Positions 2,919-61,580 of a stretch of 64,000 nucleotides of DNA are shown here, piece after piece. The stretch spans positions 62,001 through 126,000 of the forward strand of contig NZ_BOQP01000051.1 in assembly GCF_018332715.1 (NCBI RefSeq), read 5' to 3'. The notes under the pieces are model-generated. The model was given only the letters and a program-made list of their open reading frames with translations. It was not told where the DNA came from and did not search any database. Position numbers and translations under genes: made by a program. The DNA comes from Winogradskya consettensis. Lineage in GTDB: Bacteria; Actinomycetota; Actinomycetes; Mycobacteriales; Micromonosporaceae. The number at the start of each line of letters is the position of its first letter. The first letter of the stretch is position 1.

Positions 2919-2996
2919 CCGCCCCGCCCGAGCAACACCCCAGCGAGGGGCCCCGAGACCCTTAGCCGGGGCCCCGGCGCTCACTTGCCGGGGCGG
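2919..2996. repeat. Nested inverted repeat in the divergent promoter region
   Basis: Inner hairpin: 2942-2954 against 2968-2981, with GGGGCCCC pairing GGGGCCCC and AGCG pairing CGCT around a 13-nt loop. Outer arms: CCGCCCCG at 2919-2926 against CGGGGCGG at 2989-2996. The two dyads are almost concentric. The structure lies midway between the two divergent starts, so it could be an operator or a transcription insulator. Very high GC makes chance palindromes more likely, which limits confidence. Confidence 0.4.
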
Positions 2997-3073
2997 TTAG
3001 GGGTTGACCGTGATCGGCGTGGATGAGGACGGTAGGTCCGGTCCCATTTACGGTCCTGACCAGATTGGCTGCG

Positions 3074-4294
3074 ATGATGCTCTCGCCCACGCGGCACTCG
3101 TTCGATCTGCGCGACCCCAGGCTGCAGAACGACCGCTACAACTACTATCGCGAGTTCCGCGAGAACGACCCGATCCACTACTCGTCGCACGGCTACTGGG
3201 TGCTGACCCGTTACGACGACTGCGACACGTTCCTGCGTGCGCCCGGGGTCACCGCGAACTTCACCCACGAGGAGGACTGGGTCCGTGCCCGCGGCGGCCC
3301 GAACAGTCCCGTCGTCCGCAGCAACCGGCGGTGGAGCTTCTCCCGCGACGGCGCCGAGCACCGCCAGATCCGCCGGCTGCTGTCGCGTGGCCTGAGCCCG
3401 AGCGCGATCGACCGCATGCGGCCCCGGATCGTCCAGATGGTCAACGACATGATCGACGCGATGGGTGAGGGCGAGGCGGACCTGATCTCCGGGCTCGCGC
3501 TGCCCCTGCCGGTAGCCGTCGTCGGTGAGTTGCTCGGCATCCCGCCGGAGGACGCCGTCCGCTGCCGGCAGTGGACCAACACCATCGCCGACGTCGTCGA
3601 CCCGGTGGTCACCCCGCAGATGCGGGTCCGGATGAACCGCGCCGCGACCGAGTTCGAGGCGTACGTCATGGAACAGCTCGCGGAGCGGCGGAAGAACCCC
3701 CGCGACGACATGCTGAGCATGCTCGCCGAGCCCGACGCCAACGGCGAGCAGATGAGCGACGAGGACATCGTCGCGCAGGTGCTGGTCATGTACAACGCCG
3801 GGCACGAGACGTCGGTGAACGTCATCGGCAACGGCATGCTGGCGCTGCTGCGCAACCCCGAGCAGATGGAGCTGGTCCGCCGCGAACCGGAGCGGCTCGA
3901 CTCCGGCTTCGAGGAGCTCGCGCGTTACGACACCGCACTGCAGATCCAGGCGCGCCGGACCACTCTGGACGTACCGCTCGGCGACAAGGTCATCCCGGCC
4001 GGGCAGATCGTCATGGTGGTGATGGGCGCGGCACACCGCGATCCGGCGCACTACCCGGACCCGGACCGGTTCGACCTGACGCGGACGACCAAGTCGCTGG
4101 CGTTCGGCTCCGGCCCGCACTACTGCATCGCCGCGACGCTCGGCCGGCTGGAGGTGGTGCTGACGTTCCGCGAGATGATGCGCCGCTACTCCACCATCGA
4201 GCTGGCCTCGGACGACCTGGAGTGGTACTCGCACTTCCGGTTCCTGCTGGGGCTGCGCCAGCTGCCGCTGCGGCTCGGCTACGCCAAGGACTGA
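3074..4294 (+). CDS. Cytochrome P450 monooxygenase (polyketide tailoring)
   Basis: Soluble bacterial class I P450, about 406 residues from the tandem ATGs at 3074/3077. It probably hydroxylates or epoxidises the polyketide, with electrons from ferredoxin partners encoded elsewhere. Seen: C-helix HRxxR (H96-R100), I-helix AGHET (A242-T246, with the acid/Thr pair for O2 activation), K-helix ExxR (E281-R284), and heme loop FGSGPHYC with the thiolate ligand Cys351. Oddities: Ala replaces the usual Gly two residues after Cys351, and the segment after ExxR reads DTALQ where many relatives have a Pro. An ATG at 3023 would add 17 residues of untypical sequence. No start has a clear Shine-Dalgarno box, and the 3074/3077 choice rests on normal family length and N-terminus. 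It is the only plus-strand gene, divergent from PKS-E and convergent with PKS-D. Its substrate cannot be told from the sequence. Confidence 0.95.
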   Translation: MMLSPTRHSFDLRDPRLQNDRYNYYREFRENDPIHYSSHGYWVLTRYDDCDTFLRAPGVTANFTHEEDWVRARGGPNSPVVRSNRRWSFSRDGAEHRQIRRLLSRGLSPSAIDRMRPRIVQMVNDMIDAMGEGEADLISGLALPLPVAVVGELLGIPPEDAVRCRQWTNTIADVVDPVVTPQMRVRMNRAATEFEAYVMEQLAERRKNPRDDMLSMLAEPDANGEQMSDEDIVAQVLVMYNAGHETSVNVIGNGMLALLRNPEQMELVRREPERLDSGFEELARYDTALQIQARRTTLDVPLGDKVIPAGQIVMVVMGAAHRDPAHYPDPDRFDLTRTTKSLAFGSGPHYCIAATLGRLEVVLTFREMMRRYSTIELASDDLEWYSHFRFLLGLRQLPLRLGYAKD

Positions 4295-4310
4295 CAACAC
4301 GCGTCTCCTG

Positions 4311-4355
4311 CGAAAAGGTCCCGTACCAGCCTCCCGGCCGGTACGGGACCTTTCG
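4311..4355. terminator. Bidirectional hairpin terminator between the P450 and PKS-D
   Basis: Perfect 14-bp inverted repeat, AAAGGTCCCGTACC (4314-4327) against GGTACGGGACCTTT (4340-4353), around a 12-nt loop; it extends to CGA/TCG if one A is bulged. It sits 19 nt after the P450 stop (4294) and just past the PKS-D stop (4360). With A-tracts on one arm and T-tracts on the other, it can end transcription from both convergent genes. Confidence 0.85.
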
Positions 4356-4359
4356 TAAT

Positions 4360-7300
4360 TCAGCCCAGCGTCGCTATCCACTCCGAGATCGCCTGCGCCG
4401 TGGTGTCGGCGTGCTCCACCATCATCGAGAAGTGGGTGCCCGGCACCTCCACCAGCGTGTGCGGCAGTTCCCAGTCACACCGCCAGTCCTCCTCGAGATC
4501 CCACGGGCCGAGCGGCTCCGTGGCGCGCAGGAACAGCGTCGGTGTGCGGATCTCCCGGGGGGCGAACGCGACCACCACCTTGCCGTACGCGGCCTGCGCC
4601 GTGAGGCGGATGTCGTCCATCGGGACGTACTGCTCCTTGCGTACCAGCGCGCCCATGGACAGCTCGTTCTTCCACACGTCGTAGATGGGCCGGTACATCG
4701 GATAGACGTCGATGAGCACCAGCCCCGCGGGCTCGATGCCCCGCTCCTCCAGGTGGCTGACGAGCGCGTGGGCGACCAGGCCGCCGCCGGAGTGCGCGAC
4801 GATCACGAACGGCTCGCCCGCGGCCGTCTCCAGCAGCTCCTCGGCCAGGAAGTCGAACGCCACTCCCATGTCGGCCGGCAGCAGCTCGCCCCGGCCGAAG
4901 CCGGGCAGGGGCAGCACCGATACCGACCGCTCACCGCGGAAGCTGCCCGCCAGCCTGGCGAACTCGTGCGGGCCGCCCGCCGCCGTGGTGCCGGCCTGGC
5001 AGATCAGCTGGGGCTGCCGTTTCCCCCGCGCCAGGTACACCGAGCGCGGCGGGTCGCTCATCTCGGAACGGCTGTGGAACACCGGCCGGAACGCGGCGGC
5101 GTCGACGACCATCCGCAGGAACTCCTGGACCTGGTCGGTGCGGATCGCCTCGAGGAACAGCGAGTTGAACACGCCGACCGGGTTCACGTCGTCCGGGGAG
5201 ATTCCCAGCACCGGCGCCACGGCCCGCACCGTACCCGCGAGCTGCTGGTCCAGGTGCCCGGCCAGCAACTCGACCGACGGGTGGTCGAACATGACCGTGC
5301 TCTCCAGCGTGAACCCGCCGGCGGTCTCCAGCCGGTTGCGCAGCTCCACCGCCATCATCGAGTCGAAGCCGAGCTCCAGGAAGACGTCGGCGGGGGCGAT
5401 CGACGCGCTCGACGCGATCCCCAGCACGGCCGCGGCGTTGTCCCGGACCAGGTCCAGCACGGCGGCCGACCGCTCCGGGCCGGTCAGCGCGAGCAGCGTC
5501 CCGCTGATGTCCACGACCTCGGGCACCTCCGGCAGCGCGGCGTCACCCTGGTCCGGCACGACCCGCTCGACGCTTGCGGCAACCGCAGCGGCGGCCCCAT
5601 TGACCGCGGCTCCGGTGACTGCGGCCTGGGTGAGCCAGTACCACTCCTGCTGGAACGCGTACGTAGGCACGGCTGCCCGGCGGGCGCCCCACGGCGCGAG
5701 CACGGCAGCCCAGTCGACGGCGGCCCCGTCCTCGTGCAGCCGGGCCACCGCGTCGAGCACCACGCGGACCGGGTCGCCGCCGTCGTCCGTGATCGCGACC
5801 CTCAGCAGGGTGTCGCTCGCCGCCGCGGCGGTGGCGGGGCCGCCGAGTGCCAGGATCCGGGTGACGCCGTCCTCGGCGAGCCGGTGCAGGGCCGTCCCGG
5901 TGAGGTCGCCGGGCGAGGACAACGGCGCCGTGTCCAGGGGCGCACCGGTCACCGCCGATACCAGGGTGACGGTCGGCTTGTCCGGGGTCACCGCGGTGCG
6001 GGAACCGGCGACCAGTGCGCACGCGTCGTCCAGCGACAGAGCGCCGGACAGGTGCACGGCGGCGATCGTCCCGGCCTCCTCCCCCACGATCACGTCGGGG
6101 TGCAGGCCCCAGGACCCGAGCAGCCGGTAGAGCGCGACCTGGGTCGCGAACCAGGCCGCGGCCTCGTGGAGCGGCTCGCCGGGGCCCGTGTCCTCCCGCA
6201 GCACCATGGCCCGCAGCGAGGAGTCGAGCAGGTTGTCGAAGCGGGCACAGACCGCGTCGAAAGCCTCGGCGTAGGCCGGGAACGCGTCGAGCAGGGCCCG
6301 GGCGGTCCGGGCGGGTCCGGCCACGCCCTGTGCGGCGCAGACGAACGCGAGCCGGCCGGCCCGGATCCGCTGCGCGGGGACGCTGCCGGACGCCAGCGCG
6401 GACAGTCCGGCGATCATCGCGGGGCGATCGGCGGCACCGACCACCGCCCGGTACTCCAGTGCGGCGCGCCCGGTCGCCAGTGACCAGCCGATGTCGGCCG
6501 GACCGGCGTCGGAGCCCGTCGCGTACCCGGACAGCCGCGCGGCCTGGGCGCGCAGTCCCTCGGCGCTCTTCGCGGAGATCAGCCACGGCACCGGGTGGGT
6601 GACGCCGGACCCGGGCCGGGTCGCCGGGACGGCCGGCGCCTCCTCGATGATCGCGTGCACGTTGGTGCCGCTCATGCCGAACGCGGACACCCCGGCCCGG
6701 CGCGGCCGGGCTCCGCGGGGCCACGCGACCTGCTCGGTCAGCAGCGCGACCGCCCCCGACGACCAGTCCACGTGCGGAGTGGGCTTGTCGACGTGCAGCG
6801 TGCGGGGCAGCTGGCCGTGACCGAGCGCGAGCACCGTCTTGATCACGGCCGCGATACCGGCGGCGGCCTGCGGGTGGCCGATGTTCGACTTCACCGAGCC
6901 GAGCCACAGGGGCCGGTCCGCCGGGCGGTCCGCTCCGTACGTGGCCAGCAGCGCCTGCGCCTCGATCGGGTCGCCGAGCGTGGTGCCTGTGCCGTGCGCC
7001 TCGACGACGTCCACCTCGGACGGGCCGATACCGGCGTTGAGCAGTGCCCGCCGGATCACCCGCTGCTGCGAGGGACCGTTCGGCGCGGTGAGCCCGTTGC
7101 TGGCGCCGTCCTGGTTGACGGCGGAGCCCCGGATCACCGCGAGCACCTCGTGGCCGAGCCGCTGGGCGTCGGAGAGCCGCTCCAGCAGCACCCAGCCGGC
7201 CCCCTCGGCCCAGCTCGTGCCGTCGGCCGCGGCGGCGAACGGCTTGCACCGGCCGTCGCCCGCGAGCGCGCCCTGACGGCCGAACTCGGCGAACACCCCG

Positions 7301-10300
7301 GGCGTCGACATCACGGCGACGCCGCCGGCCAGTGCCATGCCGCACTCGTCCTGGCGCAGCGACTGCATGGCCAGGTGGACGGCGACCAGGGACGACGAGC
7401 AGGCCGTGTCGACCGTGACGGCGGGCCCTTCCAGACCGTACGTGTACGCGATCCGCCCCGACATCACACTGGTCGCGTTGCCGGTCATCAGGTATCCCTC
7501 GGTACCGGCCGGAAGTTCAGCGCCGGCGCCGTACCCCATCGTGCTGCCGCCGACGAACACGCCGGTGGCGGTGCCCCGCAGCGAGCGCGGATCGATGCCG
7601 GCCCGCTCGAAAGCCTCCCAGGACGTCTCCAGCAGCAGCCGGTGCTGCGGGTCCATGGCCAGCGCCTCGCGCGGCGAGATCCCGAACAGCGCCGCGTCGA
7701 ACATCCCCGCGCCGTCCAGGAATCCGCCGAACGGCGCGAAGCCGTTCAGCGCCACCTCCGGCCAGCCCCGGTCCGGCGGGAACGCCGTGACGCCGTCGGC
7801 GCCGTCCACGAGCATCCGCCAGAGCCCCTCGGGCGAGTCGACGCCGCCGGGGAACCGGCAGCTCATCGACACGATGGCGATGGGCTCGCCGGTGTCACCG
7901 GCGACCGGCGCGGCCGGGCCGGTGGTGGTGCCGGCGCCCAGCCCCATCTCCACCAGCAGGTGCTCGACCAGCTGGGCCGGGGTCGGATAGTCGAAGACGA
8001 GGGTGGCCTGCAACGACACCCCGAGGATGGTGGACAGGCGGTTACGGAGCTCCAGTGCGGTCAGCGAGTCGAAGCCGAGGTCACGGAAGGGGCGCAGCCC
8101 GTCCACGGCGTCGGCGGTGTCGTACCCGAGGACCAGGCCGGCCTCCGTGCGGATCACCTCCAGCAGCATCGCGGGGCGGTCGCCGGCGGGCCGCGCGGCC
8201 AGCCGGTCCCGCACCTCGGCGCCCGCGTCGGTGCCCGCCTCGGCCGGCCCGGCGGCGGTCAGCGCCTGCCGCACCTCGCTCAGGTCACCGAGCAGCGGGC
8301 TGGTCCGGGCCACCGCGAACACCGCGATGAACCGGGCCCAGTCGATCGACGCGACGGTCAGGTCCTCGGTGCCGCCGTCGACGGCCGAGGCGAACGCCGT
8401 CATCGCGAGTTCCGGGTCCATCGGGGACATGCCGCGACGGGTCAGGTATTCCTCGCCGCCCTCGGCGTCGACCATCCCGCCGCCGCCCCACGGGCCCCAG
8501 GCGATCGCGGTGGCCGGCTTCCCCTGGCCCCGGCGGAACTCGGCGAGGGCGTCCAGGTACGCGTTGCCGGCGCCGTACGCGCTCTGCCCGCCCGCGCCCC
8601 ACACACCGGCGCCGGAGGAGAACAGCACGAACCGCTCCAGCGGCAGGTCCCCGGTCAGCTCGTGGAGATGGGCGGCGCCGGCGACCTTGCCGGCGACGGT
8701 CGCGGTGAACGATGCGGGATCCGTGTCGGCCAGGGCGGCGATGGTCTCCACCCCGGCCGCGTGCACCACGCCGCACAGCGGCAGGTCCGCGGGGATCGCG
8801 GCGAGCACCCCGGCCAGCGCGGCCCGGTCGCCGACGTCGCAGGCCGCCACGGTGACCCGTGATCCGGCCGCGGTCAGCTCGACGGCCAGCTCGGCGGCGC
8901 CGGGTGCGGCGTCACCACGCCGGCTGACGAGCACGATGTGCGGGGTGCCCCGGGCGGCGAGCAAGCGGGCGGACCGGGCACCGAGCGCACCCGTGCCACC
9001 GGTGATCAGCACCGTCCCGGCCGGGCGCCAGGGCTCGGCCGGCTCCGGCACCGCGGCGCGCTGCAACCGGCGGCCGAAGACCCCGGACGGGCGGACAGCG
9101 ACCTGGTCCTCGGCCCCGTTGAGCACGGCTGCCAGGCGGGCACCGGACCGCTCGTCCAGCTCCTCCGGCAGGTCGATCAGGCCGCCCCAGCGGTGCGGCG
9201 CCTCCAGGGCGGCGACCCGGCCCAGGCCCCAGACCTGGGCGAGGGCGGGGTCACGCAGTCGCTCGGACCGGCCGACGGAGATCGCTCCGCTGGTCAGGCA
9301 CCACAGCGGCGCGGCGAACTCGACGTCGCCGAGCGCCTGCAGCAGCGTCAGGGTGGCCGTCGGGGCGTCGCCGGCGGCGGACGCCGGCAGGGCGAGCAGG
9401 GACAGCACCCCGGCGTACGACGGCTCCGGGCCTGCCATGGTGAGCAGGTCCTCGGCGAGTGTCCAGCGGTCGGGTACGCCCGTGACGACCAGCTCGGCCA
9501 CCTCCGCACCGGCCTCGCGGACCGCGCCGGAGACGGCGCCGGCGTCGTACCCGGTGGGGACGACGAGCAGCCAGGTGCCGGTCAACCGGCTGTCCGCCAG
9601 GTCCGTCAGCGGCTTCCAGCGCACGCGGTAGCGCCACGAGTCGACCGTCCACTCGGCGCGGCGTTGCCTGCGCCACCGGGACAGCGCGGGCAGGACGTCG
9701 GGCAGTCCCTCGCCGGCCGGCAGGCCCAGCGTCGCGGCGACCCGGTCGGTGTCGTCACGCTCGACGGCATCCCAGAACAGGGCCTCGACCGGATCGGCGA
9801 CCGCGGCCACGGGGGCCGGCTCGGGAAGGAGCGGGGCGTCGGGCCAGTACCGCTGCCGCTGGAACGCCGTGGTGGGCAGTTCGACGGGTGCGGCGCCGTA
9901 CCCGGAGAGGGTCGCGGGCCAGTCCACCTCGGCGCCGTCGACCGACAGCTCGGCGAGCGCGCGCAGGGCGGCCTCGGGCTCAGGACGGCCGGCACGGACC
10001 GCGGCGGCCAGCACGGGCGGGCGGCTACCGGTCCGGGTGTCGAGTGTGGAGCGCGCCATCCCGGTCAGTACCCCGTCCGGCCCCAGCTCCAGGAAGCGGG
10101 TCACGCCCTCGCGGTGGAGCCGGTCGATGGCGTCGGCGTAGCGGACGGTGGCCCTGGTGTGCCGGACCCAGTGGTCGCCGTCGAGCTGACCGTCGGTGAT
10201 CGGCGCGCCGGTCACCGTGGAGATCAGCGGGATGACGGGCTTGCCGTGCGGCAGCTGCCGGGCGATCGACCCGAACTCCGCCAGGATCGGGTCCATCAGC

Positions 10301-12585
10301 GGTGAGTGGAACGCGTGCGACACGTTCAACCGGGACGTACGGCGGCCCTCGGCACGCCAGCGCCGCTCCAGGTCGGCGACCGCGGTCGCGTGCCCGGAGA
10401 CCACCACCGCCGCCGGGCCGTTGACGGCGGCCACGTCGACGAGTGCCTCGCGGCCGGCCAGTGCCGCGCGTACCTCGGCCTCGTCGGCCTGGACGGCCAG
10501 CATCAGCCCGTCGGCGGGCAGCTCGTCCATCAGCCGGCCGCGCGCGGCGACCAGCGCGCAGGCGTCCTCCAGGGAGAGCACGCCGGCGACGTACGCCGCG
10601 GTGATCTCACCGACCGAGTGCCCGACCAGGAAGTCCGGCGTGACGCCCCACGAGGCGAACAGGCGGGACAGCGCCACGCCGATCGCGAACGTGGCCGGCT
10701 GGGTGTAGAGCGTACGGTTGAGCAGCTTCGCCTCGCCCGAGCCGGGAGCGGCGAAGACCAGGTCGCGCAGCGGGCGTTCGAGCGTCGGGGTGAAGCCGCC
10801 GCAGACCATGTCGAACGCCTCCGCGTACACGCTGAAGGCGGCGTGCAGCCCGAGGCCCATGCCGGCGCGCTGGGCGCCCTGGCCCGGGAACAGGAAGGCG
10901 GTCCGGCCGGCGGCGGCGACCCCGGTCAGCACGGACGGGGCGGCGGTGCCGCCGGCGACCGCGGCGAGGCCACCGTTCAGGCCGTCGCGGTCGGAGGCGA
11001 CGATCACCGCCCGGTGCTCGTGCCGGCTGCGCGTGGTCACCAGGGACAGGCCGATGTCGGCCGGGTGCGTCTCGGCCCCGTCGAGGTGCCGCCGCAGCGC
11101 CTCGGCCTGGGCGCGCAGCCCGGCCTCGGAGCGCCCGGAGAGCACCCACGGCACCGCCGCGGGCGGCCGGGCGGGCTCACCGACGGGCGTACGCGCGACC
11201 GGCGGCGCCTCCTCGATCAGCGTGTGCACGTTCGTACCGCTGATCCCGAACGCGGACACCCCGGCCCGGCGCGGCTCGCCGGTGACCGGCCAGGGCAGCG
11301 CCGAGGTGAGCAGCGAGACGTCGCCCGCCGACCAGTCCACGTGGGAGCTGGGCCGTTCCACGTGCAGCGTCCGGGGCAGCAGGCCGTGCCGGATGGCCAG
11401 CACCATCTTGATGACCCCGGCGACGCCGGAGCTCTGCTGGGTGTGGCCGATGTTGGACTTGAGCGCGCCGATGTAGAGCGGCCGGCCGGCGGGACGGGAC
11501 TGGCCGTACGTGGCGATCAGTGCCTGCGCCTCGATCGGGTCGCCCAGCGCCGTGCCGGTGCCGTGCGCCTCGACCACGTCGATCTGCTCCGGGGAGAGCC
11601 GCGCGTCGGCGAGCGCCTGCCGGATGACCCGCTGCTGGGACGGCCCGTTCGGGGCGGTGAGCCCGTTGGAGGCGCCGTCCTGGTTGACCGCCGAGCCGCG
11701 GATCACGGCCAGCACCTTGTGGCCGTTGCGCTGGGCGTCGTCGAGGCGTTCGAGCATCACGACGGCGGCGCCCTCGGCCATGCCCATGCCATCGGCGGCC
11801 TCGGAGAACGCCTTGCACCGGCCGTCCGAGGCCAGCGCGCGCTGGCGGCTGAACTCGACCAGGCCCGCGGGGTTCGGGATGACCGTGACGCCGCCGGCCA
11901 GCGCCATCGTGCACTCCTTCCGGCGCAGCCCCTGCACGGCCAGGTGCAGGGCGACCGACGAGGACGAGCACGCGGTGTCCACGGTGACCGCGGGCCCCTC
12001 GGTGCCGAGCGTGTACGCGACCCGCCCGGACACCACCGAGGTGGCACCGCCGGTGACCATGTACCCCTCGGACCCGGCGAACGCGTGCAGCATCCCTGCG
12101 CCGTACCCCTGCCCGCTGGCACCCATGTAGACGCCGGTACGGGTGCCACGCAGCGCGTTCGGCGCGATCCCGGCGCGTTCCACCGTCTCCCAGCACACCT
12201 CCAGCACCATCCGCTGCTGCGGGTCCATGGCCAGCGCCTCGCGCTGGTTGATGCCGAAGAACGCCGGGTCGAACATGGTCGCGTCGTGCACGAACCCACC
12301 CTCGACGGCGTAGGCGGTCCCCGAGTTCGCGGGATCGGCGTCGTAGAAGTCGGCGATGTCGAAACCCCGGTCGGTGGGGATCGGGCCGACCGCGTCACCG
12401 CCGTCCACCACGAGACGCCAGAGGTCGTCGGGGTTGTTCACCCCGCCGGGCAGGCGGCAGCCCATCGCGACGATCGCGATCGGCGCCTGGTCACCGGCCT
12501 CGGCGCTGCGCAGACGCTGGCGCGTGTCGTGCAGCTCCGCGATCACCCGGGTGAGGTAGTCGCGTAGCTTGTCCTCGTCCGCCAT
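4360..12585 (-). CDS. PKS-D: terminal type I polyketide synthase, two modules with thioesterase
   Basis: 2,741-residue last subunit of the main assembly line. Order: docking helix (1-33), KS (Cys206), AT (Ser657, HAFH, malonyl), KR (Tyr1337, A-type), ACP (Ser1507); then KS (Cys1729), a degenerate AT, ACP (Ser2409) and thioesterase (Ser2599, Asp2626, His2718). The start at 12585 (MADEDKLRDYL...) is chosen because GGAGGG lies 11 nt upstream and the docking helix begins there; an in-frame ATG at 12720 would run into the PKS-C coding region and add an untypical arginine/serine-rich tail. It begins 40 bp after the PKS-C stop and is the last gene of the operon. The N-terminal coiled coil should bind the acidic C-terminal helix of PKS-C. 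The second AT lacks its catalytic Ser and most of its acceptor subdomain, so the terminal module cannot load its own extender unit. Confidence 0.98.
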   Translation of the reverse strand: MADEDKLRDYLTRVIAELHDTRQRLRSAEAGDQAPIAIVAMGCRLPGGVNNPDDLWRLVVDGGDAVGPIPTDRGFDIADFYDADPANSGTAYAVEGGFVHDATMFDPAFFGINQREALAMDPQQRMVLEVCWETVERAGIAPNALRGTRTGVYMGASGQGYGAGMLHAFAGSEGYMVTGGATSVVSGRVAYTLGTEGPAVTVDTACSSSSVALHLAVQGLRRKECTMALAGGVTVIPNPAGLVEFSRQRALASDGRCKAFSEAADGMGMAEGAAVVMLERLDDAQRNGHKVLAVIRGSAVNQDGASNGLTAPNGPSQQRVIRQALADARLSPEQIDVVEAHGTGTALGDPIEAQALIATYGQSRPAGRPLYIGALKSNIGHTQQSSGVAGVIKMVLAIRHGLLPRTLHVERPSSHVDWSAGDVSLLTSALPWPVTGEPRRAGVSAFGISGTNVHTLIEEAPPVARTPVGEPARPPAAVPWVLSGRSEAGLRAQAEALRRHLDGAETHPADIGLSLVTTRSRHEHRAVIVASDRDGLNGGLAAVAGGTAAPSVLTGVAAAGRTAFLFPGQGAQRAGMGLGLHAAFSVYAEAFDMVCGGFTPTLERPLRDLVFAAPGSGEAKLLNRTLYTQPATFAIGVALSRLFASWGVTPDFLVGHSVGEITAAYVAGVLSLEDACALVAARGRLMDELPADGLMLAVQADEAEVRAALAGREALVDVAAVNGPAAVVVSGHATAVADLERRWRAEGRRTSRLNVSHAFHSPLMDPILAEFGSIARQLPHGKPVIPLISTVTGAPITDGQLDGDHWVRHTRATVRYADAIDRLHREGVTRFLELGPDGVLTGMARSTLDTRTGSRPPVLAAAVRAGRPEPEAALRALAELSVDGAEVDWPATLSGYGAAPVELPTTAFQRQRYWPDAPLLPEPAPVAAVADPVEALFWDAVERDDTDRVAATLGLPAGEGLPDVLPALSRWRRQRRAEWTVDSWRYRVRWKPLTDLADSRLTGTWLLVVPTGYDAGAVSGAVREAGAEVAELVVTGVPDRWTLAEDLLTMAGPEPSYAGVLSLLALPASAAGDAPTATLTLLQALGDVEFAAPLWCLTSGAISVGRSERLRDPALAQVWGLGRVAALEAPHRWGGLIDLPEELDERSGARLAAVLNGAEDQVAVRPSGVFGRRLQRAAVPEPAEPWRPAGTVLITGGTGALGARSARLLAARGTPHIVLVSRRGDAAPGAAELAVELTAAGSRVTVAACDVGDRAALAGVLAAIPADLPLCGVVHAAGVETIAALADTDPASFTATVAGKVAGAAHLHELTGDLPLERFVLFSSGAGVWGAGGQSAYGAGNAYLDALAEFRRGQGKPATAIAWGPWGGGGMVDAEGGEEYLTRRGMSPMDPELAMTAFASAVDGGTEDLTVASIDWARFIAVFAVARTSPLLGDLSEVRQALTAAGPAEAGTDAGAEVRDRLAARPAGDRPAMLLEVIRTEAGLVLGYDTADAVDGLRPFRDLGFDSLTALELRNRLSTILGVSLQATLVFDYPTPAQLVEHLLVEMGLGAGTTTGPAAPVAGDTGEPIAIVSMSCRFPGGVDSPEGLWRMLVDGADGVTAFPPDRGWPEVALNGFAPFGGFLDGAGMFDAALFGISPREALAMDPQHRLLLETSWEAFERAGIDPRSLRGTATGVFVGGSTMGYGAGAELPAGTEGYLMTGNATSVMSGRIAYTYGLEGPAVTVDTACSSSLVAVHLAMQSLRQDECGMALAGGVAVMSTPGVFAEFGRQGALAGDGRCKPFAAAADGTSWAEGAGWVLLERLSDAQRLGHEVLAVIRGSAVNQDGASNGLTAPNGPSQQRVIRRALLNAGIGPSEVDVVEAHGTGTTLGDPIEAQALLATYGADRPADRPLWLGSVKSNIGHPQAAAGIAAVIKTVLALGHGQLPRTLHVDKPTPHVDWSSGAVALLTEQVAWPRGARPRRAGVSAFGMSGTNVHAIIEEAPAVPATRPGSGVTHPVPWLISAKSAEGLRAQAARLSGYATGSDAGPADIGWSLATGRAALEYRAVVGAADRPAMIAGLSALASGSVPAQRIRAGRLAFVCAAQGVAGPARTARALLDAFPAYAEAFDAVCARFDNLLDSSLRAMVLREDTGPGEPLHEAAAWFATQVALYRLLGSWGLHPDVIVGEEAGTIAAVHLSGALSLDDACALVAGSRTAVTPDKPTVTLVSAVTGAPLDTAPLSSPGDLTGTALHRLAEDGVTRILALGGPATAAAASDTLLRVAITDDGGDPVRVVLDAVARLHEDGAAVDWAAVLAPWGARRAAVPTYAFQQEWYWLTQAAVTGAAVNGAAAAVAASVERVVPDQGDAALPEVPEVVDISGTLLALTGPERSAAVLDLVRDNAAAVLGIASSASIAPADVFLELGFDSMMAVELRNRLETAGGFTLESTVMFDHPSVELLAGHLDQQLAGTVRAVAPVLGISPDDVNPVGVFNSLFLEAIRTDQVQEFLRMVVDAAAFRPVFHSRSEMSDPPRSVYLARGKRQPQLICQAGTTAAGGPHEFARLAGSFRGERSVSVLPLPGFGRGELLPADMGVAFDFLAEELLETAAGEPFVIVAHSGGGLVAHALVSHLEERGIEPAGLVLIDVYPMYRPIYDVWKNELSMGALVRKEQYVPMDDIRLTAQAAYGKVVVAFAPREIRTPTLFLRATEPLGPWDLEEDWRCDWELPHTLVEVPGTHFSMMVEHADTTAQAISEWIATLG
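4363..5150 (-). other. Thioesterase domain of PKS-D
   Basis: Alpha/beta-hydrolase type I TE with Ser2599 in AHSGGG (codon 4789-4791), Asp2626 in LIDVYP (4708-4710) and His2718 in GTHFSMM (4432-4434). The Ser-Asp and Ser-His spacings of 27 and 119 residues match the triad of macrolide-forming TEs. It should take the finished chain from the last ACP and release it by lactonisation or hydrolysis. Confidence 0.92.
5690..6375 (-). other. Degenerate acyltransferase remnant in PKS-D module 2
   Basis: The segment aligns with AT domains but lacks the parts needed for catalysis. Where active ATs here read GHS(V/I/Q)GE, this one reads GEEAGT: the His is Glu2169 and the nucleophilic Ser is Glu2170 (codon 6076-6078). 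The GQGxQ loop reads AAQGVAG. After DDACALVA the chain jumps to TVTLVSAVTGAP; compared with module 1 about 90 residues are missing, including the GPxxVVVSG stretch and the HAFH/YASH specificity motif. A WVRH-like helix further on is missing too. The frame stays open throughout, so the scaffold was retained while catalysis was lost. Confidence 0.93.
7891..12486 (-). other. PKS-D module 1: KS-AT(malonyl)-KR(A-type)-ACP
   Basis: KS Cys206 (11968-11970); AT Ser657 in GHSVGE with HAFH, so malonyl-CoA; KR with TGGTGALG, a Trp eight residues before catalytic Tyr1337 and no LDD motif, so an A-type (L-hydroxy) reductase, probably A1 since Gln occupies the -3 position; ACP Ser1507. It adds an unbranched two-carbon unit and reduces the beta-keto group inherited from PKS-C. 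Confidence 0.9.
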
Positions 12586-12596
12586 CGAACGTTGAT

Positions 12597-12602
12597 CCCT
12601 CC
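12597..12602 (-). promoter_or_regulatory. Ribosome binding site of PKS-D
   Basis: GGAGGG on the minus strand, 11 nt before the ATG at 12585. It favours this start over the upstream in-frame ATG at 12720, which lies inside PKS-C. Confidence 0.65.
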
Positions 12603-12625
12603 GGAGTTGGTGCCGGACCCGCCGC

Positions 12626-15600
12626 TCAGCCGAGGCCGAGGTCCTCGTCGACGAACGCGAAGATCTCCTCGTTCGAGGCGGAGCCGAGCTTGGCGAGCAA
12701 CTTCTGGTCGTCCGTTCCACCCTGGGCAGGCCCGGCGTGCCGGGAGAGCAGGGCCTCGAGCCGCAACATGATGCGCACTCGTTCGATGTCGTCGTCCGCC
12801 AGCGCGGACAGGGCCGCGTCCAGCCGGTCGAGCTCCTGCGGTGTCGGCAGCGGGTTGTCCGCCTCCGGCGGCACCAGCTCGGCCGCGATGAACTCCGCCA
12901 GCGCCACCGGGGTGGGCCGGTCGAACACCATGGTCGCCGGCAGCGACAGCCCGGTGGCCTCGCCGAGACGGTTCCGCAGCTCCACCGCCATCAGTGAGTC
13001 GAAGCCGAGGTCGCGAAACGGCCGGTCGGGTTCGATCGCCTCGCCGCCGGTGTGGCCCAGCACCACCGCGGCGTGCCGGCGGATCAGGTCGAGCACGGCG
13101 TGGTCGCGCTCGGCGGCGGGCAGGGCGGTCAGCCGGTCCCGCACCTCGTGCCGGGCACCCGCCGCCCCGTCCGCGCCGTCGGCCGCCGCGCCACGGGCCG
13201 CCTCGGTGATCCGGCGCACCTCGGCGAGATCGTCGAGCAGCGGGCTCGGGCGCAGGCTGGTGAACGCGGGCACGAACAGGTCCCAGTCGACCTCGGCGAG
13301 CGCGATGAACGTGTCGTCGCGGTCCAGGGCCCGTTCCAGCGCGGCCAGGGCCGTGGCGGGGTCGAGCAGCGGCACGCCCCGGCGGCGCATGACCTCACCC
13401 GCGGCCTCCGGCAGCATGCCGCCACCGCCCCAGGGCCCCCACGCGATGGACATCATCGGTACGCCCTCGGCGCGGCGGCGGATCGCCAGCGCGTCCAGGT
13501 AGGCGTTCGCGGCGGCGTACCCGCCGTGCATGCCGACACCCCACGTGGCGGCGATCGACGAGAAGTGCACCACCACGTCGAGGCCGGCGGGGTCGAGCAG
13601 CTCGTCGAGGTGCCGGGCGCCGGCCATCTTGCCGGTCGCGATGTGCGCCAGCATGTGCACGTCGGTCTCGTCCAGGTCGGCGAGCTGGCCGATGCCGGCG
13701 GTGTGGAACACGGAGCGGATCGGCGTACCCGCGTCGGCGAGACCGATGACCAGCGCGGCCACCTGGTCCCGGTCCGACAGGTCACAGGTCGCCGCCTCGG
13801 CGGTGGCCCCGGCGGCGCGCAGCTCGTCGAGCAGGGCGGCGACGCCGGGTGCGTCCGGGCCGCTGCGGCTGGCGAGCACCAGGTGCGGGGTACCCCGCCC
13901 GGCGAGCCAGCGCGCCACGTGGCCACCGAGCGCACCGGTGCCACCGGTGACGAGCACCGTGCCCTCCGGGCGCCACGTGCGCGGCGCGGGGGTGGCCCCC
14001 ACGGCGGCGCGGACCAGGCGGCGTACCGAAACCCCGGCGGAGCGGATCGCGAGCTGGTCCTCGCCGCCGGTGACGCTCAGCGCCGCCGCGAGCCGGGACA
14101 CGGCCCGGGCGTCGACCACCGGCGGCAGGTCCACGAGGCCACCCCAGCGGCCGGGGCGCTCCAGCGCGGCCACCCGCCCGAGGCCCCAGATCGCGGCCTG
14201 TTCGGGGTTGCGGACCGTCTCGGTGCCCGCGACGGCGACGGCACCCCGGGTCACGCACCACAGCCGCGCGGTGGTGTCGAGCGCGTTGAGCGTGTGCAGC
14301 AGAGCGAGCGTCGCGGTGAGCCCGCAGGTCAGCGCCGGGTAGTCGGGGTGCGGCGTCTCGTCCTCGGCGAGCAGCGACAGGACCCCGGCCGGGGCGCCGG
14401 GCGCCTCGATCGCCGCCCGCAGCACGGGTTCGAGCGTGTCGGCGTCCGCGTCGGCGGCGTCGACCCCGACGACGGTCAGCTCGGCGCCGACGCCTGCCAG
14501 GCACTTGGTCAGGGTGGTCACGTACTCGTCACCGGCGTGCCGGGCGGGGACGACCACGATCCAGCGCCCGGTCAGCGCAGGGGTGGAGGCCTCGGCCGTG
14601 GCCCGCCATTCGATCCGGTAGCGCCACTGGTCGAGCGCCGCGGACTCGGTGGTGCCGCGGTGCCAGCGGGCCAGGGCCGGCAGCAGCGGGGCCACCTCGT
14701 CGCCGGGCAGGGCGAGCGTGCCCGCCAGCGCGGTCGCGTCCTGGCGGTGGACGGCGTCCCAGAAACTCTGCTCGAACACCGTGCCGGCGGCTCCGGGCCG
14801 GCCGGTGTCCTCGGCCGGGCGCGGGCTGGGCCAGTAACGGCTGTGCTGGAACGCGTACGTGGGCAGGTCAACCCGGCGGGTGCCGCCCAGCACGGCGCTC
14901 CACTCGACGGCCGCGCCGTGCACATGGGCCTCGGCGACGCTGGCGAGCATCCGGCCGGGGCCGCCCTCGCCGCGGCGCAGGGTGCCGATCGCGACACCGT
15001 CGCCGCCGGTGATGTCGGCGAGCGCCGGGGTGAGCACGGGGTGCGGGCTGATCTCGATGAAGATCCGGCGGCTGCCCGGCACGGACCGTACGGCGTCCTC
15101 GAACAGCACGGTCTGGCGCAGGTTGGTGTACCAGTAACCGGCGTCCAGCCCGGTGGTGTCCATCCGGGACCCGGTCACCGAGGAGTAGAACGGCACCCGG
15201 GACTCGCCGGCGGTCACCCCGGCGAGCAGCCGGCCGATCCCGTCCCGCAGCGGCTCGACGTGGTGCGAATGAGAGGCGTAGTCCACCGGGATACGGCGGG
15301 CCCGGATGTCCTCGGCCTCGCACGCGGCGATCAGCTCGTCGAGCGCGGTCACGTCACCGGAGACGACCACGGCGGACGGTCCGTTGACGGCCGCGACGGA
15401 GAGCTGGCCCGGCCAGGACGCGAGGCGTTCCCGGACCGCGTCGACGCCGAGCGCCACCGAGACCATCCCACCTCCTCCTTCGCCGAGTCCGACCAGGGCC
15501 TGGCTGCGCAGCGCCACCACCGCGGCGGCGTCGTCCAGGCTGAGTGCGCCCGCGACGCACGCGGCCGAGATCTCCCCCTGACTGTGCCCGATCACGGCGG

Positions 15601-17425
15601 CGGGGCGTACCCCATAGACCCCCCACAGATCGGCCAGGGAGACCATCACGGCCCACAGCATCGGCTGCACGACGTCGACCCGGTCCAGGCCGGGTGCCCC
15701 GGGTACGCCGGTCAGCACCTCGATCGGCGACCAGTCCAGGTGCGGCGCGAGGGCCCGGGCGCAGGCCTCGAAGCGGTCCTGGAAGGCCGGCGCGGTGCGG
15801 TAGAGCTCGAGCGCCATGCCCTCCCACTGCGAGCCCTGGCCGGGGAAGACGAACACGATCTCGCTGTCGCCCCGGGCGACGCCGGTGACCACGGCGGCCG
15901 ACGGTTCCCCGTCCGCGAGCGCGGCGAGACCGGCGAGCGGGCCGTCGCCGAGCACCACGGCGCTGTGCTCGAACCGGGTCCGGCCCAGCGCGAGGGAGGC
16001 GGCGATGTCCGCCGCGCCGAGCTCGGGGTGGGCGGTCACGTGCGCGCGCAGCCGCTGGGCCTGGGCCCGCAGCGCCGCGGAGCTGCGGGCGGACAGCAGC
16101 CAGGGCGCCTGCTCCGGGACCAGCGGGATGCCGGTGCCCTCCGGTGCGGCCGGCTCCGGCGCGGGCGGGGCCTGCTCGATGATGACGTGGGCGTTCGTGC
16201 CGCTGGCGCCGAACGAGGAGACGCCCGCGCGGCGGGGGCGGCCGGTGTCGGGCCACGACCGCGGCTCGGTGATGAGCTCGACCGCGCCGGCGGACCAGTC
16301 CACATGGGACGTCGGTGCGTCCACGTGCAGGGTCTGCGGGACGACGCCGTGGCCGATCGCCAGCACCATCTTGATCACCCCGGCCATGCCGGCCGCGGCC
16401 TGGGTGTGCCCGATGTTCGACTTGATCGAGCCGAGCCACAGCGGTCGTTCCGCGGGCCGGTCCTGCCCGTACGTCGCGAGCAGCGCCTGCGCCTCGATCG
16501 GGTCGCCGAGCGTCGTCGCGGTGCCGTGCGCCTCGACGACGTCCACGTCCGCGCCGTGCAGGCCCGCGTCGGCGAGCGCCCGGCGGATGACCCGCTGCTG
16601 GGCGGGGCCGTTCGGGGCGGTCAGGCCGTTGCTGGCCCCGTCGGAGTTGAGGGCGCTGCCGCGCAGCACACCGAGCACGGTGTGTCCCGCGCGGTGGGCG
16701 TCGGAGAGCCGCTCGACCAGCAGCACACCGGCGCCCTCACCCCAGCCCGTGCCGTTGGCGGCCTCCGCGAACGGGCGGCAGCGCCCGTCCGGTGCGAGCC
16801 CGTCGAGGCTGCTGAACTCGGCGAACGTGAACGGGGTGGACATCACGGTGACGCCGGCGGCCAGCGCGTAGCGGCACTCCCCGCGCCGGAGCGACTGCGC
16901 GGCCAGGTGCAGGGCGGTCAGGGAGGAGGAACAGGCGGTGTCGAGCGTCAGCGCCTGACCCTCCAGGCCCAGCGTGTACGCGAGCCGCCCGGACAGCATG
17001 CTGGAGTTGACGCCGGTGAGCAGGTGGCCCTCGGTGTTCTCCGCCCCGCCCATCAGCGCGTACGAATAGTCCTGCTCGTTGCCGCCGACGAAGACCCCGG
17101 TGTCGGTGCCGCGCAGCGAGCGCGGGTCGACGCCGGCGCGTTCGATGGCCTCCCAGGCCGTCTCCAGCAGCAACCGCTGCTGCGGGTCCATGGTGATCGC
17201 CTCGCGCGGGCTGATCCCGAAGAACCCGGCGTCGAAGTCACCGGCGTCGTAGAGGAACCCGCCGGCCCTGGCGTACCCGCTGGAGGTGTCCAGGTCCCAG
17301 CCACGGTCGGCGGGGAACTCACCGATCGCGTCGCCGCCGCTCGCGACGAGGTCCCAGAGCTGCTCCGGTGAGCGGACACCGCCCGGGAAGCGGCAGCCGA
17401 TGCCGACGATCGCGATCGGGTCGTC
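12626..17425 (-). other. PKS-C module 2: KS-AT(methylmalonyl)-KR(A2-type)-ACP plus docking
   Basis: KS from residue 1532 reads TLDTACSSS (Cys1696), HGTAT in place of HGTGT, and EFSSLDGLAPDG where others have EFSRQ-like sequence, so it is the most divergent KS here. AT Ser2146, YASH. KR: Trp eight and His three residues before Tyr2834 and no LDD motif, the pattern of A2-type reductases, which set an L-hydroxyl and epimerise the alpha-methyl. ACP Ser3008. Confidence 0.88.
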
Positions 17426-20400
17426 GTACGCGGTCCCGGCCGGGACGGGAGCCGTGTCGGTGACCGGGCGGGCGGCGTCGTCCACGTCGAGGACGGCGAC
17501 CAGGTGCCCGGCGAGGACCGCGGGTGTCGGGTAGTCGAACACCAGCGTGGCGGGCAGCAGCAGCCCGCTCGCGGTGCGCAGCAGGTCGCGCAGCTCGACG
17601 GCGATGAGCGAGTCGATGCCGAGGTCGCGGAACGGGCGCTGGGCGTCGATGCTCTCGGCGCCGTCGTAGCGCAGCACCTCCGCGACCGCGGCGCGGACCG
17701 TGGCCAGGGCGATGCCGGCCCGTTCGGCGGCGGGTGCGGCGGCGAGCGTCGCCCGCAGCGGCGCGTCCTCCGCGGGGGTGTCCTCGACGGACTCCCGCAC
17801 GGCCTCGGGGAGGTCGCCGAGCAGGGGGCTGGGGCGTACGGCGGTGAACCCGGTGGTGAACCGCGCCCAGTCGACGTCGGCGACGACGAGCCCGCTGTCC
17901 CGGGCGTCCACCGCCTCGGCGAACGCGGCCATCGCGAGCGCCGGGTCGAGCGGGCTCATACCGCGGCGGCGCAGGTACTCGTCGCCGCTGCCCCGGGTGG
18001 CCATGCCGGCACCGGCCCAGGTGCCCCAGGCGATGGCGGTGGCGTCGAGCCCGCGGGCCCGGCGGTGCTCGGCGAGCGCGTCGAGGTAGGCGTTGCCGGC
18101 GGCGTACGCCGCCTGACCGCCGCCGCCCCAGATGCCCGCCGCGGAGGAGAACAGGATGAACCGCTCGACCCCGGGCCCGGCCAGCGCGTCGAGGTTGGCC
18201 GCACCGGCGGCCTTGCCCCGGACGACGCCGGCGAACGAGTCGAGCCCGGTGTCGGTGAGGGTCTCGACGGCGTCGAGCCCGGCGGCGTGCACGACGCCGC
18301 ACAGCGGCCACCGGCCGGGCAGCGCGCCGATCAGCGCGGCGAGCCCGTCGCGGTCGGCGACGTCGCACGCGGCGATCGTGACCTCGGTGCCGAGTGCGGT
18401 CAGCTCGTCGCGCAGGGCGGTGGCCTGCGGGGTGTCCGGGCCGCCACGGCTGAGCAGCAGCAGGTGCGGGGCGCCCCGGCCGGCGAGCCAGCGGGCGGTG
18501 TGGGCACCGAGCGCGCCCGTGCCGCCGGTGATGAGCACCGTCCCGGTGGGCTGCCACGGCGCGGCGGTGTCCTGGGAGGTGGTGTCGCGGCGCAGGCGGC
18601 GGGCGAACGCGCCGGAGTCGCGCAGGGCGATCTGGTCCTCCCCCGCCACGCCGGTCAGGAGTGCGGCGAGCCGCTGTCCGGCCCGGCCGTCGAGGGTGCC
18701 GGGCAGGTCGATGAGCCCGCCCCAGGTGCGCGGGTGTTCCAGGGCCGCGACCCGGCCGACGCCCCAGAGCTGGGCCTGGCCGGGGTCACGCACCGGGTCG
18801 GCGCGGCCCGTGGAGACGGCGCCGCGGGTCAGGCACCACAGCGGCGCGGTGAGCCCCGCGTCCACCACGGCCTGGATCAGTGTGACGGTGCCGGCGGTCG
18901 CGCCGGGCAGGCCGGGGTACGCCTCGCCGGCCGGGTCGAGCGGGGTGGCGTCGACGATGCCGGCGAGGTCCCCGGCCTCCCCCACCGCGACGAGCAGCCG
19001 TTCGGCCAGCACGTAGCGGTCCCGGTCGCCGGGCCCGGTCGCCACGGTGACGACGGTGGCCCCGGCCGCGCCGAGCGCGGTGAGCACGTCGTCGCCGCCG
19101 GGTCCGGCCGTGACGACCAGCCAGGTCCCGCTCAGCGTCGCCGTGGCGGCGGGCAGCGGCTTCCAGCCGATCCGGTAGCGCCAGGAGCTGATGGCCGTAC
19201 CGGCCTGCCGGCGGCGGTGCCGGTCGGCGAGCGCGGGCAGCAGCCGGACGAGGGCGTCGTGGTCGGCCTCCGGGTCGAGGCGCAGCGTGGCGGCGAGGCC
19301 GTCGGTGTCCCCGGCCTCGACGGCGCCCCAGAACGCGGCGTCGCCTCCGCCCTCGCCGGGTGCGGCGGGGGTGGCGTTGTCCAGCCAGTAGCGGGTGCGC
19401 TGGAACGGGTAGGTCGGCAGCTCCGCCCGGGGCCCGGCGCCCAGCAGGCCCGGCCAGTCCATCGCCGCGCCCGCGGCCCACGCCGCGCCCAGGGAGCGCC
19501 ACACCCGCGCCCGGTCGCCCTCGCCGCGGCGCAGCGTCCCGGTCGCGACGCCGCCGTGATCCTCCACGCCCGCGGTCAGCACCGGGTGCGGGCTGCACTC
19601 CACGAACAGGTCGTGCCCCGCCGCGACGAGCTCGCCGACCACCTGGTCGAAGCGGACCGGCTCACGAACGTTGGCGAACCAGTAATCGGCGTCCAGCTCG
19701 GCGGTGTCCATCCGGGTGCCGCGCACCGTGGAGTAGAACGGGATCGACCCGGACCGTGGCTGTATCCCGGCCAGTCCCGCGAGGAACTCCGTACGCACAT
19801 CGTCCACGTGCGCCGAGTGCGACGCGTACTCGATCGGCACGCGCCGGTTCCAGAGGCCCTGCGCCTCGCAGCGCTCGCCCACCGCGGCCAGCCCGGCCTC
19901 GTCCCCGGACACCACCGTCATCGACGGGGCGTTGAACGCCGCGACGCCGATCCCGGTGACACCGTCGAGCAGCTCCCCGACCTTGGCCGGGGGCGCCCCG
20001 ATCAGCAGCATCCCGCCCCTGCCTGCGAGTGACCGCAGCACCCGCGAACGGTGCACCACCATCCGCGCGGCGTCGTCGAGGCTCAGGCCGCCGGCGACGA
20101 CGGCCGCGGCGATCTCACCCTGCGAGTGACCCACCACACCGTCGATGCGTACGCCCGCAGCCCGCCACACCTCGGCCAGCGCCACCAGCACCGCCCACCA
20201 CACCGGCTGCAGCACGTCGTCCCGGCCCAGCCACGCGTCGTCGCCGCCGCGCAGCACGTCCGCCACCGACCAGTCCACCAGGCCCGCCAGCGCCGCCTGG
20301 CACTCGTCGATCCGGGCGGCGAAGACCGGGTCCTCGTCGAGCAGCCCGGCCGCCATCCCCGCCCACTGGCCGCCCTGGCCCGGGAAGACCAGCACCACGC

Positions 20401-22018: not shown

Positions 22019-22024
22019 CGCTGT

Positions 22025-22030
22025 CCTCCT
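22025..22030 (-). promoter_or_regulatory. Ribosome binding site of PKS-C
   Basis: Perfect AGGAGG on the minus strand, six nt before the ATG at 22018, within the 25-bp gap after PKS-B. It decides the PKS-C start. Confidence 0.85.
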
Positions 22031-22043
22031 GGCTGGGTCCGGC

Positions 22044-61580
<39,537 letters not shown>

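Follow-up and report, generated by a model that had tools for sequence, protein, structure and literature searches.

Can a polyketide synthase (PKS) module still extend its chain once it has lost its own acyltransferase (AT)? The question is raised by PKS-D of Winogradskya consettensis, whose gene (4360..12720, minus strand) lies within a stretch of 64,000 nucleotides, hereafter the window, which corresponds to positions 62001-126000 of contig C51 (NZ_BOQP01000051.1, 264 kb) in a draft genome of 10.6 Mb and 112 contigs (GCF_018332715.1). Coordinates preceded by C51 are those of the contig, while the others are those of the window. PKS-D is 2786 aa long from the first GTG, with a probable start at MADEDK 45 codons in, and comprises two modules, KS-AT-KR-ACP and KS-AT0-ACP-TE (KS, ketosynthase; KR, ketoreductase; ACP, acyl carrier protein; TE, thioesterase), the AT of the second lacking the GHSxG motif (AT0). 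Judging from its sequence and from those of two relatives, it is reasonably probable that this terminal module, having lost its cis AT and an already dead KR, still extends the chain, its ACP being charged with malonate by another AT.

Inactivation of the AT in PKS-D module 2

The KS-AT linker, the AT remnant and the post-AT linker (YAFQQEWYW) of module 2 occupy 5626..6699 (minus strand). At 6067..6084 (minus strand), GEEAGT replaces GHSxGE, the two Glu codons being 6076-6081, which confirms the initial annotation in that both the AT Ser and the neighbouring His have become Glu. The GQGxQ motif is also lost (it reads CAAQGVA) and the HAFH region is missing. From the end of the KS to the YAFQxxxYW linker, 341 residues remain versus 447 in the ortholog of a related genome, G275, hence 106 residues have been lost. 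About 90 residues, including the substrate motif, had been described as gone in frame; the loss, its frame and the absence of HAFH are borne out, but the size is slightly larger. The GC content at third codon positions (GC3) is 0.87-0.98 for every 60-codon block from the second KS to the end of the gene and, because it is steady through the AT remnant, no frameshift is visible. Of the 319 positions of the Pfam AT model, only 2-121 align with the remnant, with 32.7 bits, while the 31 other AT matches of the cluster score 142-294 bits. In the predicted structure of the remnant region (mean pLDDT 75.6), the top Foldseek matches are KS-AT and AT structures with an rmsd of 5-11 A, and the stretches with a pLDDT below 50 flank the deletion (residues 235-242 and 252-266) or lie at the ends; the model showed nothing beyond a likeness to KS-AT folds. 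By its motifs, the cis AT of PKS-D module 2 is dead.

Conservation of the KS, ACP and TE

The KS of module 2 (6655..7884, minus strand) retains its catalytic Cys and both His motifs, EAHGTG and KSNIGH, together with the usual conserved residues, and has its reciprocal best KS match in G275 at 76%. In non-elongating (KS0) modules of trans-AT PKSs, a KS His needed for condensation is lost; the module 2 KS is not of this kind, since both motifs are there. Strongly conserved columns are altered at 3 of 156 positions, with fewer changes in 31 of 65 KS domains and as many in 12 (itself counted). The ACP (5257..5451, minus strand) carries GFDSM and breaks 0 of 10 conserved columns, and no KR was found between the AT0 and the ACP. 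The type I TE (4363..5028, minus strand) has its triad in place when aligned by eye to both orthologs, the Ser being in HSGGG, the Asp in L-I/V-D and the His in G-T/N-HFS; elsewhere on the contig, Pfam recognizes a thioesterase only in a small type II-like gene that stands separately (C51 29901-30563). The initial annotation thus holds for KS Cys1729 and ACP Ser2409, whose positions counted from MADEDK are as it gave them, and for the intact TE triad.

Orthologous lines in two related genomes

When the AT0-ACP-TE region was compared with 354 genomes of the family, the best 3 candidates being scored per genome, the matches in G189 and G275 stood out with identities of 59% and 58%, versus 41% for the match that follows them by E-value. 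In both genomes PKS-C, PKS-D, a divergent P450-like open reading frame (ORF) and PKS-E follow the same order, and the order differs upstream of PKS-C. Reciprocal best KS matches between the window genome and G275 (73-77%) cover PKS-D, PKS-C, PKS-E and the genes after PKS-E. By KS matches and gene order from PKS-C to PKS-E, G189 and G275 both carry an orthologous line, with 33 extension modules here versus 30 in G275.

In both relatives, PKS-D module 2 is organized as KS-AT(GHSIGE, HAFH)-KR-ACP-TE; because both retain the AT, it was most simply lost in the lineage of the window. The terminal KR of both relatives has its catalytic Tyr replaced by Thr and its Asn by Gly, and looks inactive from these substitutions. 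The KR that the orthologs carry dead is wholly gone from PKS-D module 2, a point absent from the earlier interpretation. Since the relatives' KR lacks the catalytic Tyr and Asn, a beta-ketone at the end of the chain is probably ancestral, and the loss of the KR is therefore no sign of an idle module. It is not tied to the loss of the AT either, as in the relatives a dead KR coexists with intact AT motifs. The KS identity of PKS-D module 2 to its ortholog (0.76) lies inside the range of 22 module pairs (0.71-0.83).

The relatives have lost an AT at another position of the line. GHSxG is found in 29 of 31 G275 modules, the exceptions being PKS-C module 1 and the loading AT. The AT of PKS-C module 1 is absent in both G275 (L073) and G189 (L069/L071), 145 aa separating the end of the KS from the YW linker in G275 versus 434 here, where the same module has an intact AT of the methylmalonyl type (19475..20392, minus strand; GHSQGE, YASH). 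Between G189 and G275, this AT-less module is 99.0% identical in its KS, with a ratio of nonsynonymous to synonymous substitution rates (dN/dS) of 0.07, 99.4% identical in its KR (dN/dS 0.03, the minimum among 14 KR comparisons) and 98.5% identical in its ACP, for which dS is too low to judge. The linker replacing the lost AT has the top value (0.53) of 14 linkers, the others containing a whole AT and not being like-for-like. On these comparisons, the conservation of the AT-less PKS-C module 1 equals that of AT-bearing modules without exceeding it. It would still extend, because its KR has been kept conserved in a module without AT. As far as motifs and conserved columns tell, AT loss hits different modules of one assembly line, the rest of which is without visible decay.

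Other AT-less modules of the cluster

GHSxG is lacking from 3 of the 34 modules of the cluster here: PKS-D module 2, module 2 of a 7682-aa PKS and the loading module, the latter two lying beyond the window and having been missed earlier. The initial annotation had spoken of a single inactivated domain in a preserved scaffold; the KS, ACP and TE are indeed sound, but the inactivation is not single, as the AT and the KR of PKS-D module 2 are both gone and three modules of the cluster are affected. The second AT0 extension module, module 2 of C51 ORF 174629-197674 (minus strand, outside the window), is organized as KS-AT0-DH-ER-KR-ACP (DH, dehydratase; ER, enoylreductase). It has GDGDGE for GHSxGE and is 114 residues shorter than its ortholog, its other domains being intact by motif, and conserved columns are changed at 1/155 in the KS, 2/48 in the DH, 1/93 in the ER, 0/40 in the KR and 0/10 in the ACP. 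Its G275 ortholog has a methylmalonyl-type AT.

The loading module is the first in C51 ORF 123623-135871 (minus strand), a gene whose 3′ part occupies the window from 61623 onward. Its KS Cys is replaced by Gln (DAGQASS) and, in contrast to the AT0 extension modules, this KSQ has 50 of 155 conserved columns changed. The loading AT is heavily eroded and 241 residues short versus its ortholog, the loading AT of G275 being full length, with GSSQGE. A fatty acyl-AMP ligase-like gene, recognized by eye, is located near 28-30 kb of C51, and no ligase match at E 1e-20 was found among short ORFs from 240 kb around the G275 cluster. This ligase-like gene may have assumed the loading of the starter in the present cluster, and the loss of the loading AT would be accounted for in this way. 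The three AT remnants differ in their boundaries; all retain the KS-AT and post-AT linkers and all lack the HAFH/YASH stretch.

Possible donors of the extender unit

We infer loading from elsewhere, the identity of the donor and the product as follows. The ACP of PKS-D module 2 would receive malonate most simply from the malonyl-type AT of module 1 on the same polypeptide (9940..10896, minus strand; GHSVGE, HAFH) or, alternatively, from a discrete malonyl AT, either FabD or a trans-AT-type AT elsewhere in the genome. The KS of module 2 would then add the last two carbons, no reduction would follow and the TE would release a beta-keto macrolactone (3-oxo or hemiketal). HAFH denotes the malonyl type and YASH the methylmalonyl type, and AT specificities are called here mainly from these motif rules. 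The lost specificity is that of the adjacent AT in 2 of 3 cases (malonyl/malonyl for PKS-D module 2, methylmalonyl/methylmalonyl for PKS-C module 1).

Candidates for a free-standing donor, named by eye, are a FabD-like AT on contig C58, a trans-AT-type AT on C7 and a discrete GHSQGE/YASH AT of another cluster on C7. The trans-AT-type AT has a counterpart in both relatives. However, trans-AT-type ATs occur in 48 of the 354 family genomes at E <= 1e-55, and the one here shares 43% identity with that of G275, both being located outside the cluster, hence their co-occurrence says little. A dedicated trans-AT was sought within the cluster and none was found; an AT gene in the cluster which would serve the AT-less modules, as in trans-AT PKSs, is thus not seen. 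As a separate observation, the discrete GHSQGE/YASH AT (C7 144410-145639, plus strand; L022) is followed by a type II-like TE and has a luciferase-like monooxygenase as a neighbour, all three belonging to a different biosynthetic cluster (names by eye).

Comparison with known systems

The nearest published case is the terminal module M12 of the irumamycin PKS. In the part of the report considered here (PMC11672594), its AT is described as lacking the catalytic Ser (Ser-to-Gly) and having motifs of poor conservation, the DH is predicted to be inactive and the product contains a hemiketal ring; in the authors' proposal, the ACP of M12 is charged by AT11 and M12 still extends the chain. PKS-D module 2 is likewise the last module before the TE, with an AT without nucleophile and an intact KS and ACP. 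However, M12 differs in having the Ser-to-Gly change, with no deletion reported in that part of the paper, while in PKS-D module 2 the region of the AT small subdomain is deleted and the KR is gone. The line of PKS-D also differs from the irumamycin line, as described there, by two further AT-dead modules.

Quinolidomicin-type clusters of Micromonospora encode a giant cis-AT line of 33 modules (PMC8698034, again in part). Table 3 of that paper, which gives antiSMASH calls with a warning that some modules are doubtful, lists qnm module 19 as KS/DH/KR/ACP and the M. okii ortholog module 21 as KS/KR/ACP where orthologs have an AT. The number of 33 modules suggested that the present cluster could be that of quinolidomicin. 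This was rejected because the quinolidomicin loading module is CoA ligase/ACP and the domain order is different. On the same partial account, quinolidomicin clusters differ from the line of PKS-D in their CoA ligase loading, in having other modules AT-less and in terminal modules listed with ATm.

If the AT0 modules here extend, they resemble trans-AT PKSs in taking their extender from an AT outside the module. Trans-AT PKSs differ, however, in that 31 of 34 modules here have their own GHSxG and the contig has no free AT. Moreover, the remnant here consists of the cis-AT linker and part of the large subdomain, unlike in trans-AT PKSs. According to a review (PMC6164871), AT-null DEBS module 6 extends when a discrete AT, S. 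coelicolor MAT or BryP, is supplied, and AT-null DEBS is complemented in vitro by KirCII and Dsz AT; AT-null DEBS module 6 was engineered, whereas the AT loss in PKS-D module 2 is natural.

Extension or relay by the terminal module

Loading by another AT is favoured because the module 2 KS keeps its Cys-His-His residues and usual conserved positions, because the second AT0 extension module of the cluster has an intact KS, DH, ER, KR and ACP, and because irumamycin M12 is read by its authors, in the part considered, as extending. Several observations weigh against it. The Pfam AT search of the whole genome found no free-standing AT on C51. Supply by a neighbour fails for module 2 of C51 ORF 174629-197674, whose ortholog is methylmalonyl while both neighbours are malonyl, which would mean either the loss of a methyl branch or supply by a different AT; the AT-less quinolidomicin modules 19 and 21 also adjoin malonyl ATs where orthologs list methylmalonyl, on the calls of that table (PMC8698034). 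The ACP identity of PKS-D module 2 to its ortholog (0.55) is at the low end of the range (0.55-0.82), tied with five other modules. No AT0 was found in 28 other TE-bearing terminal modules (top TE matches from the genus, family and class): the GHSxG region was in view in 26, all of which keep it, and was cut by the contig start in 2. Both orthologs of PKS-D module 2 also keep the AT. The test for purifying selection on PKS-C module 1 relies on few changes: dS is about 0.07-0.09, and the two genomes differ at about 4 residues of the KS and 1 of the KR. In addition, the AT-less module of G275 has 7 of 158 conserved columns changed in the KS (fewer in 53 of 65 KS domains) and 2 of 41 in the KR (fewer in 50 of 62). 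The changes in the KS need not stem from AT loss, because the AT-bearing counterpart here has 6 of 157 changed, several at the same columns.

The initial annotation had named two options, an AT acting in trans or a relay without extension, which are the right ones given the dead cis AT, and had leaned towards selection for a non-extending release module. Depending on which of them applies, two carbons and a ketone are present in or absent from the predicted product. In the relay, the KS and ACP would only pass the finished chain of module 1 to the TE, leaving the AT and KR free to decay; both are indeed lost, as expected without a beta-keto intermediate on the module 2 ACP, the module sits last before the TE, and skipped or non-extending modules are known. 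However, the KS retains its condensation motifs and conserved columns, the KR of the relatives died next to intact AT motifs, and AT-less modules of the same line family keep conserved KRs. A relay is thus rather unlikely, and less likely than loading by another AT; selection for a non-extending module is the weaker reading in view of the full reducing set in the other AT0 module, the conserved AT-less PKS-C module 1, the intact KS and the irumamycin analogy. It is improbable that the cluster, or PKS-D module 2, is decaying without a product and that the AT losses are early pseudogene steps. This would fit the 3 of 34 modules without GHSxG and the heavily eroded loading AT, but the large PKS genes have open frames, broken conserved columns are not in excess in the other domains of the AT0 extension modules, the relatives' AT-less module is conserved across two species and the loading AT was possibly replaced by the fatty acyl-AMP ligase-like gene (by eye). 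As for an error of sequencing or assembly making a live AT seem dead, the genome is a draft of 112 contigs, but the contig contains zero N, GC3 is steady through the remnant and the KS, ACP and TE read clean. Such an error is extremely unlikely, because several AT motifs are lost by substitutions and in-frame deletions between clean neighbours.

Distribution and significance of AT loss

No ortholog of the AT0-ACP-TE region was found in the genus (67 genomes including its own, with at most the best 19 candidates per genome), and in a class sample of 394 genomes, own genome aside, nothing exceeded 44% identity at E <= 1e-70. Twelve loci matching the region in a broader contig scan had best segments 33-54% identical and none was taken as an ortholog. 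Screening 354 genomes for the junctions of AT-less modules, with the best 9 candidates per genome, gives a lower bound: beyond the two orthologs there is at least one clear case, in G135, while G324 is doubtful and G228 was rejected on inspection. In G135 (C16:51237-55520; L102), a one-module protein KS-DH-KR-ACP without AT stands beside four AT-bearing modules and represents an independent AT loss. The initial annotation had proposed a search for other clusters with the same deletion; in the genomes covered, no close relative shares the loss in PKS-D module 2 itself, but AT-less modules were found (PKS-C module 1 and G135).

The kind of module is already known; what is new is that, within one orthologous giant line, ATs have been lost repeatedly and from different modules, with the stripped modules preserved. 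In the open literature, searched by title and abstract opening with most subscription journals outside, no report was found of orthologous bacterial cis-AT lines losing the AT at different modules; a paper on an algal PKS, concerning displacement of ATs in trans (PMC4661987), appears to come nearest in idea. Tentatively, and with less than even confidence, this family of giant cis-AT lines may be drifting to trans loading, the ATs being lost singly at different modules in each lineage while the stripped modules function through a shared AT activity, neighbouring or free-standing. If true, comparison within the family would show a cis-to-trans AT transition while it is taking place in nature. 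An orthologous set with the AT lost at different modules, including one AT-less module conserved in two species, amounts to natural knock-outs for a direct test. If other ATs cover the stripped modules, AT and module are paired less tightly than is assumed in module engineering.

Organization of the cluster

The PKS genes occupy about 34-198 kb of C51 and lie on a single strand throughout. The 34 KS-to-ACP modules comprise 1 loading and 33 extension modules and, with GHSxG between KS and ACP in 31 of them, the cluster is of the cis-AT modular type I, PKS-D module 2 itself excepted. Read from docking ends, the line would run from the loading gene through genes of 8, 5, 7 and 1 modules to the PKS-E set, PKS-C and PKS-D, and all 34 modules would belong to one assembly line. 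PKS-C (two modules; 12626..22102, minus strand) is judged by gene order to be the upstream partner of PKS-D. Further cluster genes, from translations read by eye, encode a fatty acyl-AMP ligase, a type II TE, a phosphopantetheinyl transferase (PPTase), carboxylase subunits and ABC transporter components.

Divergent to PKS-D, a cytochrome P450-like gene (3023..4294, plus strand) shares 64% identity with the ORF in the corresponding position of G275; in G189 this position is occupied by an ORF of 429 aa. The frame at 2981-4381 (minus strand) has no Pfam match, and the real gene there is apparently the P450-like one on the plus strand. Module 2 of C51 ORF 49774-64890 has an AT with GHSQGE in which AGHSP replaces HAFH/YASH; its G275 ortholog (2619609-2635802, module 2) is likewise without HAFH/YASH, and the extender is not guessable from the usual motifs. 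Finally, a single frame of 13,178 aa (22044-61580, minus strand) carries eight complete PKS modules.

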